Part shown: piece by piece, positions 3,921-39,348 of the stretch | How positions within the stretch are numbered: position 1 is the first letter of the stretch | How the letters are laid out: each line of letters begins with the position of its first letter | Assembly: GCA_947381965.1 (NCBI GenBank) | Contig: CANCXX010000032.1 | Location: 1 to 50,394, forward strand | Length of the DNA stretch: 50,394 nt | From: an uncultured bacterium | Lineage (GTDB): Bacteria > Bacillota > Clostridia > Lachnospirales > Lachnospiraceae | Direction: 5' to 3' | Notes under the pieces: model-generated | Told to the model about the DNA's origin: nothing | What the model saw: the letters and a program-made list of their open reading frames with translations, nothing else | Database searches by the model: none | Position numbers and translations under genes: made by a program

Positions 3921-3947
3921 CATAGGACATTGTACATAATGTCCCGC
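3921..3947. promoter_or_regulatory. Inverted repeat in the leader of the histidine phosphatase gene
   Basis: GGACATT and AATGTCC flank a 6-base loop at 3925-3944, with an outer GCG/CGC pairing. It lies 30 bp before the phosphatase start, between divergent genes. There is no T run, so an operator or a leader hairpin is more likely than a terminator. Confidence 0.4.
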
Positions 3948-3975
3948 TAAAGAAATAAAAAGTGGGGGAACAATC

Positions 3976-4557
3976 ATGAAGCTTTATCTGGTCAGGCATG
4001 GTGAGACGGACTGGAATATTGACAGTAAAATCCAGGGACATACGGATATTGCCCTGAATGAAAAGGGCAGGCAGCAGGCAGGAGAGCTTGCAAGGGTGCT
4101 TGCGGAAGGAAATTATCACATTAAAGAAATTTATACAAGTGAAAAAGAACGTGCATGGGAAACGGCACGTATTATAGGAAATGTCCTTGGAATAACGCCC
4201 AAAGTCGCAAAAGGGCTGGAGGAAATCTGTCTTGGAAAGTGGGAAGGCCATACATGGAAGCAGGTGAAAGAGCAGTTTTCAGAAGAGTTTGCACTCTGGC
4301 ACAGCGACCGCCGGCACCAGGTTCCGCCTATGGGAGAATCCTACCAGCAGCTTTTGGACAGACTTTTGCCGGCAATTGATGATATAATAAAGAAAGAACA
4401 GGAGGATACGCTGATAGTTACGCACAGCGGAGTGATTATGACATTGCTGTCATATATTTATGATACGCCTTTTGAGGATATGGCAAGGAACTATAAAACA
4501 GGAAATGCTAAAATTGTTGAGCTGGACAAGGAAATGTTTTATAAAAGATACTTATAA
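3976..4557 (+). CDS. Histidine phosphatase family protein (phosphoglycerate mutase-like)
   Basis: A 193-residue member of the RHG superfamily. The signature LVRHGETDWN has the phospho-accepting H8, and the second catalytic histidine is H150 in VTHSG. Length and the IQGHTDIALNEKGRQQA segment match the GpmB/CobC-like subgroup, which includes phosphoserine, fructose-bisphosphate and alpha-ribazole phosphatases rather than glycolytic mutase. A GGGGG stretch precedes the start. The sugar-kinase gene follows after 28 bp, suggesting one transcript and a possible sugar-phosphate substrate (inference). Confidence 0.88.
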   Translation: MKLYLVRHGETDWNIDSKIQGHTDIALNEKGRQQAGELARVLAEGNYHIKEIYTSEKERAWETARIIGNVLGITPKVAKGLEEICLGKWEGHTWKQVKEQFSEEFALWHSDRRHQVPPMGESYQQLLDRLLPAIDDIIKKEQEDTLIVTHSGVIMTLLSYIYDTPFEDMARNYKTGNAKIVELDKEMFYKRYL

Positions 4558-4585
4558 AAATTTATAGTAAAAGGAGAGAAAGAGT

Positions 4586-5461
4586 ATGAGATTAGGTGCA
4601 TTGGAAGCAGGCGGAACGAAGATGGTGTGTGCAGTGGGGGATGAAACAGGGAAAATTTATGAGCAGATTTCCATTCCTACGGAAACACCGGAAATTACGG
4701 TGCCGAAGCTGATTGATTATTTTAAGAAGGCGGAAGTGGACGCTTTGGGAATTGGGTGTTTTGGACCCATTGACCCGGACAAAAGTTCTAAAACCTATGG
4801 CTATATTACAAGCACCCCAAAGCTGGCATGGGCGGACTATAATATTGTTGGGGCGTTTGAAAAAGCGCTGGGCGTTCCGGTGGGGTTCGATACGGACGTA
4901 AACGGGTCAGTTTTGGGAGAAGTTACTTTTGGGCAGGCCAAAGGCAAGAAATGTGTAATTTATGTGACGATAGGAACAGGTGTGGGCGTAGGGGTTTTTA
5001 TTGAAGGAAAGCTGCTGCACGGAATGCTTCATCCGGAGGCGGGACATGTACATATCCAGAAACGGGAGGATGATGCTTATGAAGGAAAATGTCCTTATCA
5101 TAAAACCTGTCTGGAAGGCCTTGCGGCAGGACCGGCAGTGGAAGCGCGCTGGGGACAAAAGGCAGTGGAATTAAATGACAGAAAGGAAGTCTGGGATCTG
5201 GAGGCGTACTATATTGCCCAGGCGCTTTCAGGATATATCCTTACACTGTCGCCGGAAATGATTATTTTAGGCGGCGGAATCATGCACCAGGAACAGCTTT
5301 TCCCGTTGATTAGAAATTATGTAAAGGAAATGCTTAATGGGTATATTAAGACAGATGAAATAGAGAACATAGACAGTTATATTGTACCTGCAAGCCTTCA
5401 TGATGACCAGGGAATTATGGGATGTCTGGAGCTTGGGCGCAGAGCGCTGAAAGAAAAATAA
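4586..5461 (+). CDS. ROK-family sugar kinase (fructokinase-like)
   Basis: A 291-residue cytosolic hexose kinase of the ROK family. The N-terminal phosphate loop is EAGGTK (residues 7-12), the catalytic Asp is D104 in TDVNG, and the ATP-binding IGTGVGVG is at 129-136. The zinc site His154...CPYHxxC (C169, H172, C175) is typical of Gram-positive ROK fructokinases. Length agrees with that family (about 290). AAGGAGAG precedes the ATG. Substrate (fructose, mannose or another hexose) cannot be settled from sequence. Confidence 0.9.
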   Translation: MRLGALEAGGTKMVCAVGDETGKIYEQISIPTETPEITVPKLIDYFKKAEVDALGIGCFGPIDPDKSSKTYGYITSTPKLAWADYNIVGAFEKALGVPVGFDTDVNGSVLGEVTFGQAKGKKCVIYVTIGTGVGVGVFIEGKLLHGMLHPEAGHVHIQKREDDAYEGKCPYHKTCLEGLAAGPAVEARWGQKAVELNDRKEVWDLEAYYIAQALSGYILTLSPEMIILGGGIMHQEQLFPLIRNYVKEMLNGYIKTDEIENIDSYIVPASLHDDQGIMGCLELGRRALKEK

Positions 5462-5561
5462 CAAAGGATTGTTAAGGAAACGTCACAGGAAAACTTGTTG
5501 CGTTTCCTTAAAATATTTATCATATTATTATGTTAAAAATACAGGAAAGAGATTTACAACA

Positions 5562-6899
5562 ATGTCATTGTTCCAATATTTTTGGTTTGGGTTTTTAGAT
5601 TCTCTGATAGCGCATCTTGTACTGGTATTCTATCTGCTGGCCGTGCTGGACGAACGATTCATATGGAAACAATTGAAAAAGCTGCCCGTGCTGCTTCTGT
5701 CTCCGTTCATTGCCGCTGCGATTCCCGTGGGACTTCTCCTTATAACGCCGGAGCTTAGAATGTTCCGATATTATATAGGTTCCTTTGCTATTTATATTAT
5801 GTGTTCTCTTTGGGTGATGTGGGTGTGGCGGCTGGACTTCTGGCGGGCATTTTCCAGTGTCTGTATGACTGCAATCCTGCAGGTGGCCACCTCTGCCTTT
5901 TGCCAGATTGTATACCTGACTTTTTTGGGTGATTTTGAAGCAGGCTTTGTTTTTTATGTTTCAGGTCTGTTTCTTTCGATTGCTGGGGCTGCCCTGCTTA
6001 GAAAATTTCGTTTTGGCGTCTGGTTCCGGCTGCTATTGGAGGAACAGGCCAGTTGGCGCCAGACTGTGGCGTTTATCTTTGCAATGGATATTATCATGGA
6101 GATGTTTTTTGCTTTGCAAAATGGCATACGGCAGTCATACCTTGTGGTATACTATTTTTTAGTTATTGCGCTGGTTATCATACAAGTTGCACTGGTCGTT
6201 TATCTGGCAGGCCGGCTTGCTGATAAACGAACGCTTCAGGCGCAACAGGATATTATCGTTCAGCAGCAGCTTTACGAACAAAATCTGGAGGACATACGCA
6301 GGGAAGTTCGCTGCTTCCGGCATGATTATAAAAATCTCCTGATGGGTCTGACCCTGCAGGCGAAGGAAAGCAGACTGGATGAATTATGCACTGCATTATC
6401 GGAGTTATATACAGACTTTGACAGAACTCTGGGAGAAAAAATTCTACTGTCCACGCAGATTGGCAACCTCCGGATTATCCAGGTGCGCAGTCTTTTACTG
6501 AGTAAGCTTGCTGCCTGGAGGAAAAGTAATGTGGAGTGTCGTTTGGAGGTGCTTTACCCCGTGGAGCGTGTAGATATGAAGGTTTGGGATTTTGTCCGTT
6601 GTCTGGGTATTTTGCTGGATAATGCAACAGAGGCTGCATTGGAAACAGAGCGGCCATGGGTGGAGATTCTCCTGTCAGCCTGGAGAGGGCAGGTATTTTT
6701 GCGGGTATCCAATCCCTACAGGACTGTCTTTGACCCGGAAAAAATGTGGCAGGAGGGATGGTCTACCAAGGGTGTGGGGCGTGGGCTGGGGCTGTCCAGC
6801 TATCAGAATATTTTGGAGAACTATTCTAATGCCATTTTTTCCACTGCATGGAAGGAAGGTGTGTTTGTACAGGAATTAATAGTGGAGGAGAACGTATGA
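5562..6899 (+). CDS. AgrC-type sensor histidine kinase (GHKL ATPase)
   Basis: A 445-residue membrane sensor kinase. I chose ATG 5562, behind AGGAAAGAG, over a TTG 93 bp upstream because the protein then begins directly with hydrophobic segments. Residues 1 to about 230 form six or seven transmembrane helices. A coiled linker (LQAQQDIIVQQQ) leads to the H box FRHDYKN, an N box LLDNATEAAL and a G box GVGRGLGLSS. This layout matches the peptide-pheromone receptor kinases AgrC, ComD and BlpH. The stop overlaps the regulator start. No agrB or agrD gene is in the window, so the ligand is unknown. Confidence 0.88.
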   Translation: MSLFQYFWFGFLDSLIAHLVLVFYLLAVLDERFIWKQLKKLPVLLLSPFIAAAIPVGLLLITPELRMFRYYIGSFAIYIMCSLWVMWVWRLDFWRAFSSVCMTAILQVATSAFCQIVYLTFLGDFEAGFVFYVSGLFLSIAGAALLRKFRFGVWFRLLLEEQASWRQTVAFIFAMDIIMEMFFALQNGIRQSYLVVYYFLVIALVIIQVALVVYLAGRLADKRTLQAQQDIIVQQQLYEQNLEDIRREVRCFRHDYKNLLMGLTLQAKESRLDELCTALSELYTDFDRTLGEKILLSTQIGNLRIIQVRSLLLSKLAAWRKSNVECRLEVLYPVERVDMKVWDFVRCLGILLDNATEAALETERPWVEILLSAWRGQVFLRVSNPYRTVFDPEKMWQEGWSTKGVGRGLGLSSYQNILENYSNAIFSTAWKEGVFVQELIVEENV

Positions 6900-15187: not shown

Positions 15188-15526
15188 TTACTGATTTTTC
15201 TTTGCCCCTGCAATCAGCGCTTTCAGCTTCAGCGCTTTGTCAATATTGCCTTCTACTTTCAATTTCTGGAAGGTGACTGCAGCAATCGGGTCCTGTTCTC
15301 CGGCTGCAATTTTTTTAAGCGTCTGGGCTTTGGCTGTAAATAATGCGTCCCTGTCGTAATATTCGTATGGCTCTACGTACAGTTTCCCATCCTTTACCTC
15401 CACATAAAAAATACCTTCCGCCTCACCGATAATATTAAACTGATATGCCAGATGTTCTGTGACGCCGCTTACATCTGCTTTTTGGAATTGTTCTTTTACT
15501 TCTGCAAAAAATTCCTGAAATGTCAT
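15188..15526 (-). CDS. SCP2 sterol-transfer-domain protein
   Basis: A 112-residue single-domain protein with the SCP2 fold: amphipathic helix FQEFFAEVKEQFQKAD, strands GIFYVEVKDGKLYVEPY, and the terminal helix-strand VTFQKLKVEGNIDKALKLKALI. Such domains bind lipids or other hydrophobic ligands; the bacterial stand-alone forms have no settled role. GGAGGAAAAA precedes the ATG. It appears monocistronic. Confidence 0.85.
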   Translation of the reverse strand: MTFQEFFAEVKEQFQKADVSGVTEHLAYQFNIIGEAEGIFYVEVKDGKLYVEPYEYYDRDALFTAKAQTLKKIAAGEQDPIAAVTFQKLKVEGNIDKALKLKALIAGAKKNQ

Positions 15527-36371: not shown

Positions 36372-36696
36372 TTGATATTGTAATACACAATAATAAGGAT
36401 AAAGAAGAGGTAAAAGCCATTATTGAAGATAAAGAATTATAAAGTTTAACTCGTTGGCATATGTAGATGATTTAGAGGAAATGAAGAGCGGTGACATAGA
36501 TGAAATTGGTAGATATGTTTTTGCCAGTTGCTGGACGGATAATGAAGAACTAAGACAGGAGGTGGCAGGCATGAGTGGGCTGGGACAAAGCATTCTGGAA
36601 GAAGGAATAGAAAAAGGGGATGCCCAAAGACTGGTGCTTTCTGTAAGATCCGCATCTGCCAAGCTGGGTTCAGTGGAAAAGGATAAGTTTTCTTAA
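36372..36696 (+). pseudogene. Decayed C-terminal fragment of an Rpn-family (PD-(D/E)XK) nuclease
   Basis: Two frames read in sequence look like one ancestral protein. The first (about 36372-36440) gives LFDIVIHNNKDKEEVKAI before a stop. The second (from about 36454) gives a YVDDLEEMKSGDIDEI segment and an ending with GLGQSILEEGIEKGD, typical of the tail of Rpn recombination-promoting nucleases. The N-terminal catalytic part is missing and there is no ribosome site. Similarity is judged by eye. Confidence 0.5.
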
Positions 36697-36837: not shown

Positions 36838-36850
36838 TTTGGATTAAGAC

Positions 36851-36889
36851 AGTGGGAATGTGTATAAAACAACTATTCCCACTTTTTTT
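36851..36889 (+). terminator. Terminator after tRNA-Arg
   Basis: AGTGGGAAT (36851-36859) pairs perfectly with ATTCCCACT (36875-36883), followed by a T run. A weaker hairpin, GCAGGAA/TTCCTGC, is at 36945-36963. The rest of the 325-bp gap 36838-37162 is AT-rich and ends with the left inverted repeat of the invertible segment. Confidence 0.88.
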
Positions 36890-37039
36890 ATGCGCAGGGA
36901 TATATAAGAAAATAAGCTACTTCGCTGCACATCCTGGGCGGCGGGCAGGAAAAGTCTTCCTGCTTAATTTTTACATTTCATGAAAAAAGCTAATGTTATG
37001 AATTTTTTATTAATTTGATTTATATTTTATAATAAAAAA

Positions 37040-37074
37040 TGCAACACTCTATAACAAAGTGTTGCATTTTTTAT
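37040..37074 (+). repeat. Left 35-bp inverted repeat of the invertible segment
   Basis: This sequence is the reverse complement of 37896-37930 at 33 of 35 positions. It consists of two arms, TGCAACACT and AGTGTTGCA, around an asymmetric core ATAACA, followed by TTTTTTAT. With the A-run on its outer side it also forms a bidirectional terminator-like hairpin. Confidence 0.85.
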
Positions 37075-37162
37075 TATCTGTAATTATTATCGGAATAAAT
37101 TAAAAATACTTTAGGGGGAAATTGTAAATTCTATAAGTTTTTTTTATTTGCTTTAAGACAGT

Positions 37163-37741
37163 CTATAACCGGATTTTTTTAAAGACATCATCTTTGTCAT
37201 CCTGATCGATACATAAGTACTTTTTCGTTATGCCATAGGCTGAATGGTTATAAATATCCATAAGTAAAGCGGGCGGCGTTCCCTGCTTCCAGGCGTGGTA
37301 GCCGAAGGTTTTGCGCAGGGAATGACAGCTGATATTTGGGCCGAGTCCGGCAAAAGAGGCTGCCTCTCGTATCAGACGGTAGGCCTGAAAGCGGCTTAGG
37401 GGCTGTCGGCTTTGTATCTGGCTTGTAAACAGCCAGAGTCCTTTTTCCAAAGGGGTGTGTGCTGTGTGGCTTACAAGCGCTTTTTTAATTTCCTCATTCA
37501 TATATATCCGGTTGGTTTTTCCGGTTTTTTGCTCGTTAACCGTTATATGGGTTTTCCATTTCTTTTTCTGAAAATCGTATACATCCCCATAAGTCAAATG
37601 GAGAATGTCAGAAATACGGAGAGCTGAATTTAGTCCAATGATAATCAGCATATAATTTCTTGTATTGGGTTTTTCATATTTGAAATAGTTTTTAAATTGT
37701 GTAAGTTCATCTGTGTCTTTGATTGGCTGTGTGGCGCTCAT
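37163..37741 (-). CDS. FimB-sized tyrosine recombinase (DNA invertase candidate)
   Basis: A 192-residue tyrosine recombinase that consists almost only of the catalytic domain, like FimB/FimE (about 200) and unlike phage integrases (about 300-400). The full active set is visible: R42 (SALRISD), K72 (EQKTGK), H140-x-x-R143 (CHSLRKTFG), H166 (YNHSAYG) and the nucleophile Y175 (KKYLC). AGGAGG is seven bases before the ATG. It is flanked by inverted repeats that are its likely substrates. It could alternatively be a remnant integrase next to tRNA-Arg, but no direct attachment repeats are seen. Confidence 0.9.
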   Translation of the reverse strand: MSATQPIKDTDELTQFKNYFKYEKPNTRNYMLIIIGLNSALRISDILHLTYGDVYDFQKKKWKTHITVNEQKTGKTNRIYMNEEIKKALVSHTAHTPLEKGLWLFTSQIQSRQPLSRFQAYRLIREAASFAGLGPNISCHSLRKTFGYHAWKQGTPPALLMDIYNHSAYGITKKYLCIDQDDKDDVFKKIRL

Positions 37742-37825
37742 GATTTCCTCCTGTCTTTGTTTGGGTTTATCAAAATGTTTTTTGCACGCTTTAAAAGTTT
37801 ACATCTTTTTCCATGATTTTCCATA

Positions 37826-37846
37826 AGTATACCAATCATTCATTGG
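37826..37846 (-). promoter_or_regulatory. Extended -10 promoter and overlapping operator-like palindrome of the recombinase
   Basis: On the minus strand TGGTATACT (complement of 37826-37834) is an extended -10. The palindrome CCAAT-CATTC-ATTGG (37832-37846) lies directly upstream of the hexamer, where a regulator could block polymerase. There is no good -35. The recombinase start is 85 bp downstream. Confidence 0.5.
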
Positions 37847-37895
37847 AAGAAGGCTTTTTGTGCTTCTTATATCAGAATTTACATGATATATCTGG

Positions 37896-37930
37896 ATAAA
37901 AAATGCAACACTCTGTTATAGAATGTTGCA
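37896..37930 (-). repeat. Right 35-bp inverted repeat of the invertible segment
   Basis: Read on the minus strand it matches the left repeat except at positions 8 and 18. Its T run faces inward (toward the recombinase). Its outer side continues into CTCTGGGGG without T residues, so it is a poor terminator for transcripts leaving to the right. Confidence 0.85.
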
Positions 37931-37981
37931 CTCTGGGGGTAATGGGTTGGCTTTTGGATAGAAAGGCAGGGAGGTATTTAT

Positions 37982-38257
37982 ATGATGCGGTTAACTTTAA
38001 GCACAGAGGAATATCTGATGCTCAACGATAATATTAAAATTATTTTTCTTGGCGGAACCAAAAACCATATTAAAATCATGGTAGATGCCCCAAGAGAGGT
38101 AAATATTGTCAGAAGTACGGTGCTGAGAAAAAAGGCCGGGAGTCAGGAAGAAAGAGAGAATCTTCCTAAGTATTATGCAGAGCCGGAGGTAGATGAAAAG
38201 TACCGTAAACGCAGAAATCCAAAAGTAAGTATTACTTATGGAAGCCCGGAACCTTAA
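37982..38257 (+). CDS. csrA: CsrA-like RNA-binding translational regulator
   Basis: A 91-residue protein, longer than typical CsrA (60-75) through a charged C-terminal tail. Residues 3-50 follow the CsrA strand order: LTLSTEEYLMLNDNIKI, then NHIKIMVDAPREVNIVRS, with L4 and R44 at the positions used for RNA contact. CsrA dimers bind GGA motifs in hairpin loops and block translation; in Bacillus it represses flagellin (hag) and is antagonised by FliW. GGGAGG precedes ATG 37982. It sits 51 bp outside the invertible segment and 179 bp before flagellin. No fliW is in the window. Confidence 0.82.
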   Translation: MMRLTLSTEEYLMLNDNIKIIFLGGTKNHIKIMVDAPREVNIVRSTVLRKKAGSQEERENLPKYYAEPEVDEKYRKRRNPKVSITYGSPEP

Positions 38258-38303
38258 AGAGTGGAAGACTTTCCTGCTTTAAGTCCAAGGGATAAAAAGG
38301 TAA

Positions 38304-38368
38304 TAACCAAAAACTGAAAGGTGCAGGGAAACCGGGCCCGCTTCTCTTTTCCGGACGGTTTTTGGTTA
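38304..38368 (+). promoter_or_regulatory. Large hairpin between csrA and flagellin
   Basis: TAACCAAAAAC (38304-38314) and GTTTTTGGTTA (38358-38368) are perfect complements enclosing a GC-rich inner region. It may be a terminator with its T run in the 3' arm or part of the flagellin leader. Confidence 0.55.
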
Positions 38369-38398
38369 CTATATAAATTAAATAAAAACAAGTACTGA

Positions 38399-38430
38399 CG
38401 CAAAAGGATTTGCGCAGCAATACAAGGAGG
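38399..38430 (+). promoter_or_regulatory. Candidate CsrA binding sites in the flagellin leader
   Basis: CGCAAA (38399-38404) and TTTGCG (38409-38414) form a six-bp stem that presents AGGA as its tetraloop, the classic CsrA target. Ten bases downstream the Shine-Dalgarno AAGGAGG (38424-38430) holds a second GGA. This two-site layout mirrors the Bacillus hag leader. Confidence 0.7.
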
Positions 38431-38436
38431 TAAATT

Positions 38437-39348
38437 ATGGTAGTACAACACAATCTTACAGCAATGAACTCTAACAGAATGTTAGGCGTAAACACAAGCT
38501 CACAGGCAAAGACAACAGAGAAGTTATCCTCTGGCTACAAGATCAACCGTGCAGCTGACGATGCGGCAGGTCTTTCCATTTCAGAAAAAATGAGAAGACA
38601 GATTAGAGGTCTTACACAGGCTTCTGCAAATGCACAGGATGGTATCTCCTGCGTACAGACAGCTGAAGGCGCTCTCAATGAAGTTCATGATATGTTACAG
38701 CGTATGAATGAACTGGCAGTTAAGGGTGAAACCGGAACACTGGCATCTGTTGACCGTTCTTACATCCAGGCTGAAATTAAACAGCTGATGACAGAGGTTA
38801 ACCGTGTAGCGTCTACAACGACATTTAATGAGCAGAACCTGTTGAATGGTGACTTTAAAGGCAAAGGTCTTCAGGTTGGCGCAGAGGCAGGCCAGCACAT
38901 TACGATTACCATTGAAAAAATGAGTATGGAAGGATTGGCGGCTAAAGCTAAAAATGTTAAGTGGAAAAATGATAAGGGAACGGATATTTCTGTTAAGGCA
39001 GAGGATGTCATCAAGAGATTTAAGGATGACTTTAAGGTAGAAGATGAGGCGACTTATGCGAAATCCAATGATTTTGCAAGCCTGAATGCTTTTGTTAAGA
39101 GTGCATTACAGACTGTTTCCCAGCAGCGTTCTGATCTTGGCGCTGTCCAGAACCGTCTGGAGCATACCATTGCTAACCTTGACAATGTAGTTGAGAACAC
39201 CACAGCAGCTGAATCCAGAATTCGTGATACCGATATGGCTACCACAATGGTGAAGTATGCAAACAACAATATCCTTGCACAGGCAGGTCAGGCAATGCTT
39301 GCACAGGCTAATCAGGTTAACCAGGGTGTATTGTCTCTGCTTGGTTAA
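38437..39348 (+). CDS. hag: Flagellin
   Basis: A 303-residue flagellin with conserved D0/D1 ends (NLTAMNSNRMLG, LSSGYKINRAADDAAGLSISEKMR; C-terminal RIRDTDMATTMVKY and QANQVNQGVLSLLG) and a short variable middle (about 145-225). The TLR5-binding stretch is QRMNELAV at 88-95, close to the stimulatory consensus QRVRELAV. A cysteine at residue 72 (DGISCVQTAEGAL) is unusual for flagellin. AAGGAGG precedes the ATG, within the candidate CsrA site. No sigma-28 promoter is visible immediately upstream. Confidence 0.95.
   Translation: MVVQHNLTAMNSNRMLGVNTSSQAKTTEKLSSGYKINRAADDAAGLSISEKMRRQIRGLTQASANAQDGISCVQTAEGALNEVHDMLQRMNELAVKGETGTLASVDRSYIQAEIKQLMTEVNRVASTTTFNEQNLLNGDFKGKGLQVGAEAGQHITITIEKMSMEGLAAKAKNVKWKNDKGTDISVKAEDVIKRFKDDFKVEDEATYAKSNDFASLNAFVKSALQTVSQQRSDLGAVQNRLEHTIANLDNVVENTTAAESRIRDTDMATTMVKYANNNILAQAGQAMLAQANQVNQGVLSLLG

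Follow-up and report, generated by a model that had tools for sequence, protein, structure and literature searches.

A candidate self-contained inversion switch carrying a sigma28-type promoter upstream of a csrA-flagellin operon in a Lachnospiraceae genome

A small tyrosine recombinase gene enclosed by inverted repeats, next to a csrA gene and a flagellin gene, raises the question of whether this DNA is a phase-variation switch and, if so, what it switches. The locus lies in a stretch of 50,394 nucleotides (the window) from an uncultured bacterium of the Lachnospiraceae, with a tRNA-Arg gene to the left of the element. The arrangement very probably serves the phase variation of an alternative flagellin: the DNA bounded by the two crossover sites would be inverted by the recombinase, and it carries a putative sigma28-type promoter at the 3' side of the recombinase gene. 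In the ON orientation the promoter would read across the csrA-side site, whose hairpin lacks a T-run, into the csrA-flagellin operon; in the OFF orientation it would run into the far site, which together with its T-run would act as an intrinsic terminator.

The 35-bp inverted repeats, placed at 37040–37074 and 37896–37930 with 821 nt between them, are identical at 33 of 35 positions. Their ungapped pair score is 29, with a best value of 15 in 300 dinucleotide shuffles of the region 36900–38100, which bears out the preliminary description of two inverted repeats with arms around an asymmetric core. Each repeat holds a 27-bp site formed by two 9-bp arms (TGCAACACT with AGTGTTGCA or AATGTTGCA) and a 9-bp asymmetric core. 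The left, far-side site extends over 37040–37066 (plus strand) and the right, csrA-side site, its inverted copy, over 37904–37930 (minus strand); the pair differs at one core position and at one outer-arm position. Inverted crossover sites of this kind, paired beyond chance and with an asymmetric core, are those of an inverton. No third copy of the 27-bp sequence was found in the 4.3-Mb genome (G000) at up to 3 mismatches, only these two being present, and a search of the window that ignored the core and allowed up to 4 mismatches in the arms gave four matches, both crossover sites included.

The relatives of the element come from one scan of genome contigs, from which the best 80 of 148 loci were taken; these 80 rows are related species and are not independent. 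Their titles are mostly Lachnospiraceae or Acetatifactor, and the remaining ones read Bacillota, Clostridium, Eubacterium, Ruminococcus, Bacillus sp. or 'bacterium'. Sites were located in them through the arms alone, with up to 4 mismatches allowed, and the cores were compared in 62 elements (the window and 61 of the best 80 loci), after 19 loci had been set aside in which the recombinase has a single site (10 loci) or no site at all (9 loci) in its vicinity. Within one element the cores, read in inverted orientation, are 96% identical, against 45% between elements and 46% within an element when compared in direct orientation, and none of 2000 permutations gave a within-element match as high. 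The core pairs are perfect in 41 of the 62 elements, and 52 distinct cores are seen among them. A tyrosine recombinase needs conserved arms and cores that are free but paired. The combination of conserved arms with free but paired cores fits this need and identifies the sites, as far as sequence can tell, as recombination sites.

The preliminary description expected relatives with the recombinase to keep both repeats, and most loci do have two sites; the expectation fails for L019 (at a contig end), L031, L034, L035 and L079, in which no second site was found and one or none is present. Of the 19 loci set aside, the inverted copy is more distant in L008, L015, L016, L026 and L055 (1.8–2.5 kb, 1–3 mismatches) and weaker in L045, L057 and L066 (6, 8 and 5 mismatches, respectively), and the sites of L063, L064, L067 and L083 have other arms. 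A variant layout could be seen in L058 (sites at ~737 and ~1160, recombinase at 1463–2032) and L072 (sites at ~3511 and ~3701, recombinase at 4001–4570), where the recombinase lies outside the sites and both of these, on one side of it, bracket a few hundred bp beside csrA.

The sole gene between the repeats, on the minus strand (37163–37741), encodes a 192-aa tyrosine recombinase made up of the catalytic domain only (PF00589, E 1.2e-21, residues 10–176). Alignment with XerA (5hxy) places the R-K-H-R-H/W-Y residues of this enzyme class, and R42, K72, H140, R143, H166 and Y175 are invariant in all 81 aligned rows (the window plus the best 80 of 148), in agreement with the earlier account of a catalytic-domain-only enzyme with six active residues. 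The NCBIfam invertase models PRK09871 (5.4e-13, 48.9 bits) and PRK09870 (3.9e-10, 39.7 bits) match well under their curated cut-offs of 222 and 221 bits, placing the protein outside the FimB/FimE-type invertases; the highest-scoring NCBIfam model, XerA-type with 64.9 bits, also stays below its cut-off of 220. The next recombinases of the genome are at most 30% identical to this one. It would be the enzyme that performs the inversion, and inversion would still take place in the strain.

A promoter of the recombinase itself was not found, the sigma70 scan of 36840–38450 giving 5 matches for 5.0 expected. In six relatives (L009, L010, L011, L020, L022 and L074) fewer than 27 nt lie between the site and the start of the recombinase gene, too few to accommodate a promoter. 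On these two grounds the proposal that inversion re-aims the recombinase promoter was set aside; inversion would instead turn a distinct sigma28-type promoter, located at the 3' side of the recombinase gene. A far-flank promoter that drives the recombinase only in the ON state was also considered in 58 elements and is too weak to claim: the far flank reached a best sigma70 score of 8.26, the csrA flank 7.52 and shuffles 7.57, and scores of at least 10 occurred in 4 of 58 far flanks, 3 of 58 csrA flanks and 6.2% of shuffles. On entering the element, a T-run (at least 5 T) follows the site on the recombinase-3' side in 41 of 59 elements and on the 5' side in 14 of 59.

The sigma28-type promoter (TAAAGTATTTTTAATTTATTCCGATAA, 37087–37113, minus strand) occupies the gap that separates the left repeat from the stop codon of the recombinase gene, and aims left, away from csrA and flagellin. 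The general sigma28 consensus for Eubacterium and Roseburia flagellins is given in PMC3720852 as TAAA, N15, CCGATAT. The pattern TAAA-N15-CCGATA has a single match with zero mismatches in the 50-kb window, that at 37087–37113; the other zero-mismatch sigma28-type match, at 15405, has a spacing of 16. Elsewhere in the genome, seven other flagellin-type genes were compared over 700 nt: one of them, C17:37767, which neighbours the flagellar cluster, carries the motif with zero mismatches (TAAAGTATTGTAAAAAGCCTCCGATAT, 165 nt upstream), another carries it with one mismatch, and five lack it. FliA is encoded in the genome (266.8 bits, cut-off 189.6), and we infer that sigma28 uses the segment promoter. 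When the segment is inverted in silico, the motif faces right and ends 99 nt from the csrA start. The segment thus contains, at motif level, the internal promoter of an inverton, directed at the neighbouring operon in one orientation.

Of the 76 loci with enough sequence past the recombinase stop (members of the best 80 of 148), 58 have a sigma28-type match there, on the outward strand and no more than 330 nt away; among 1520 random stretches drawn from these loci the number is 29. L016 and L026, counted as misses, have a zero-mismatch motif directly before their second site (at 2942 and 6467, with 2 and 1 mismatches), outside the reach of the rule and facing away from csrA. The sub-branch formed by L063, L064, L067 and L083 has its promoter at the 5' side of the recombinase. 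A sigma28 promoter of the flagellin itself was sought from the right site up to the start of the gene, with no match at up to one mismatch and two matches at two mismatches.

The far-side hairpin (37029–37077, minus strand) is a perfect 20-bp inverted repeat with a T-rich tail and is the predicted terminator of leftward transcripts. The left repeat with its flanks folds at −26.0 kcal/mol on the minus strand and −22.2 kcal/mol on the plus strand, and since the sequence is symmetric it may also stop rightward transcripts. A generic terminator scan did not have the left repeat among its matches; its loop limit was 8 and the loop of this hairpin is 9. The right outer side of the window has no T-run, and a csrA-side hairpin lacking one would permit read-through. 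T residues were counted in the 8 nt beyond each site in the 59 elements, out of 70 with an assigned state, that have two sites. The far site is followed by more T than the csrA-side site in all 59 of these elements, with at least 5 T in 51 of 59 on the far side and in 2 of 59 on the csrA side. Orientation-dependent read-through with a terminator on the far side only, as put forward in the preliminary description, is at the sequence level the rule among the relatives.

The state of each locus was assigned by whether the promoter faces csrA or flagellin. Among the best 80 of 148 loci, 65 are OFF and 5 ON (L010, L032, L034, L057 and L067); two have flagellins on both sides (L023 and L030), five have no motif in reach (L016, L026, L031, L058 and L066) and three no csrA or flagellin in reach (L019, L035 and L079). 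The ON call of L034, with one site only, is doubtful and should be discounted, and the calls of L072 (OFF) and of L105 (ON, in the genus set described below) depend on distant motifs that are probably due to chance; a weaker motif seen by eye between the sites of L072 also points OFF. On the recombinase tree the distribution of ON and OFF requires 5 changes over 71 rows, and 4 over 69 rows without L034 and L072.

A direct comparison of L057 (ON) with L043 (OFF) showed that the element, from one site to the other (3941–4721 against 3940–4692), and the csrA flank (4704–5029 against 3963–3644) align on opposite strands, the strand break falling in the site. The recombinase of L045, L047 and L076 is reversed with respect to the csrA flank when compared with L057, and the same is seen for L011 and L020 against L010 and for L064 and L083 against L067. 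L032 (ON) and its nearest row, L031, are oriented alike, with no flip between them. The opposite orientation, sought in related genomes as the proposed test of a switch, was hence found between species. Together with the paired cores, this supports the initial idea of a self-contained invertible switch. No alignment between ON and OFF relatives extends into the far flank past the site and its T-run, so that their chromosomal positions may differ. No opposite orientation within a species was seen among the 13 of 49 loci common to two genome collections, all of them 100% identical. In the window the promoter faces left into the terminator and flagellin has no sigma28 match with up to one mismatch; the assembled window is therefore predicted to be OFF.

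The connection of the element with csrA and flagellin is close: among the best 80 of 148 loci csrA is found within 900 nt in 73, flagellin within 1400 nt in 75 and one or both in 77, which upholds the earlier choice of this gene pair as the target of the switch. Across a sample of 397 genomes of the family, a relative at E ≤ 1e-40 is present in 30, that of the window included. The 29 loci from this sample (4 of them identical to loci of the 80) comprise 15 OFF, 0 ON, 3 without motif and 11 without csrA or flagellin in reach; 8 of these 11 are less than 50% identical, and L129, L142 and L145 have less than 200 nt upstream. A genus search gave 20 loci (9 identical to loci of the 80), with 13 OFF, 1 ON (L105), 1 without motif and 5 without csrA or flagellin.

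The csrA gene (37982–38257, plus strand) encodes 91 aa (PF02599, E 6e-16) and the flagellin gene (38437–39348, plus strand) 303 aa (PF00669/PF00700). With 59 bits the former is a diverged paralogue; C17:32801, the canonical copy (92 bits), has FlgK, FlgL, FliW, FliD and FliS-like ORFs, named by eye, as neighbours. A third csrA match (38 bits) is located at C25:66773–66925 (L158), near an ORF that by eye is integrase-like. Ten Flagellin_N matches, two of them weak, are present in the genome. In the flagellin leader a GGA-loop hairpin (38399–38414, plus strand) precedes a GGA-containing Shine-Dalgarno sequence (GGAGG), both being candidate CsrA-type sites. GGA in a hairpin loop is the CsrA-type binding motif, and such a hairpin is seen in the flagellin leaders of 58 of 75 relatives and in 10 of 1500 shuffles. 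CsrA controls flagellin in B. subtilis, and the leader hairpin would fit an analogous control here. As csrA and flagellin lie behind one switched promoter, flagellin transcription itself should switch, and the earlier notion that the switch acts through a translational repressor finds no support in this layout. Since it shares the promoter, CsrA probably acts as a brake produced along with flagellin or, in a bolder view, as an FljA-like repressor of other flagellins.

This bolder view amounts to an analogue of Hin/FljBA assembled from unrelated parts and spread across gut Lachnospiraceae, a normally-OFF cassette whose ON state would supply both the alternative flagellin and a dedicated CsrA to silence translation of the main flagellin; such a scheme is possible but less likely than not. 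Were it true, the filament antigen would be exchanged and not merely added, and in L023 and L030 the cassette would choose between two divergent flagellins. In these two loci the cassette lies between flagellin genes whose centres are 19% and 69% identical and whose ends are 87–91% identical, an arrangement that could be a two-flagellin selector.

Other explanations of the locus were weighed against the phase-variation cassette. Ordinary bidirectional terminators that flank the recombinase by chance, with no inversion, would account for the strong fold of the left repeat and its flanks with a T-rich tail on both strands. Terminators have no need of matching asymmetric cores, yet these are paired within the 62 elements; moreover, the T-run is mostly missing on the csrA side, and the relatives show opposite orientations, all of which makes this explanation most improbable. 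A small mobile element, composed of the recombinase and terminal repeats and inserting upstream of csrA-flagellin in either direction, is very unlikely as well. It would agree with the far flanks that differ among relatives and with the passenger ORFs of some larger copies, but not with the steady adjacency of csrA and/or flagellin (77/80), the promoter of which lies inside the element, nor with a genome that has one copy and two sites. The recombinase and this csrA type also co-occur in the genus (both in 12 of 37 genomes, csrA type only in 1, recombinase only in 3, neither in 21; Fisher p 2.8e-6), and a pattern scan of viral contigs gave 7 matches with no relative among them. The whole module, switch and csrA-flagellin together, may move as a unit. 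As to the passengers, transposase-like ORFs were seen by eye beside the recombinase in L015, L034 and L055, and L008 has an acylase/bile-salt-hydrolase-like ORF (by eye) at 4542–5651 inside its invertible segment. A small ORF of the window (36454–36696), without a Pfam match and by eye the C-terminal end of a PD-(D/E)XK transposase-like protein, resembles the passengers of related cassettes.

The switch might instead have been lost in this lineage, with recombinase or sites defunct and the window locked OFF. The 65 OFF loci among the 70 scored and the differences between the window sites at one core and one outer-arm position are what a lost switch would leave, but the reading frame is intact, the six catalytic residues are kept and the cores stay matched (mean 96% over the 62 elements), so that such a loss is unlikely. 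Against the preferred phase-variation reading, the excess of OFF loci could mean that many copies rarely switch.

Host immunity in the gut targets flagellins of the Lachnospiraceae. If inversion switches one of several flagellins and this one is mostly OFF, antibody and TLR5 responses to these commensals would depend on the position of the switch, and so would flagellin counts in metagenomes; this position would be readable from ordinary sequencing reads.

Several known systems resemble the locus in part. In the fim switch of E. coli, FimB and FimE are catalytic-domain-only enzymes of ~200 aa encoded outside the invertible promoter segment, and the target is fimbriae. The window has in common with it a tyrosine recombinase of this size and domain content and an invertible promoter, but its recombinase lies inside the segment and its target is flagellin. 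Mention of fim is made in PMC5386303, which describes the Cdi4/RecV switch of Clostridioides difficile, a 154-bp element upstream of the early flgB operon that acts after transcription initiation, RecV serving also the cwpV switch. Cdi4 shares with the window the tyrosine recombinase, the inverted repeats, the gut Clostridia as hosts and flagellar phase variation; the window segment is not of the Cdi4 type, since it measures ~0.86 kb, holds both recombinase and promoter, and would control one alternative flagellin.

Two genome-wide surveys of invertible sites treat the general class to which the window element belongs. PMC5903667 notes a prevalence of fimbrial, flagellar and pilus genes close to such sites; 'csra', 'Lachnospir' and 'Roseburia' occur neither in its main text nor in that of PMC11892184, the latter also lacking 'flagell'. 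Among the matches listed from the open-licence literature, titles and beginnings of abstracts report no invertible csrA-flagellin or flagellin promoter in Lachnospiraceae. Flagellar phase variation by DNA inversion has long been known, and it is the combination seen at the window locus that appears to be new.

The Hin/fljBA system of Salmonella has the recombinase gene and the promoter of the flagellin operon inside the invertible segment, and the fljBA operon also encodes FljA, a regulator of flagellin expression. Both parts are found within the segment of the window too, the promoter at motif level, and the operon likewise includes a regulator gene. Hin is a serine recombinase, whereas the window enzyme is a tyrosine recombinase (PF00589) and falls outside the Hin family; Hin is named in PMC11868660. 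In the window the promoter is of sigma28 type and placed at the 3' side of the recombinase, a csrA regulator gene precedes flagellin and the far site doubles as a predicted terminator. If the switch works as proposed, the layout of Hin would have been reached from a different class of recombinase, a case of convergence.
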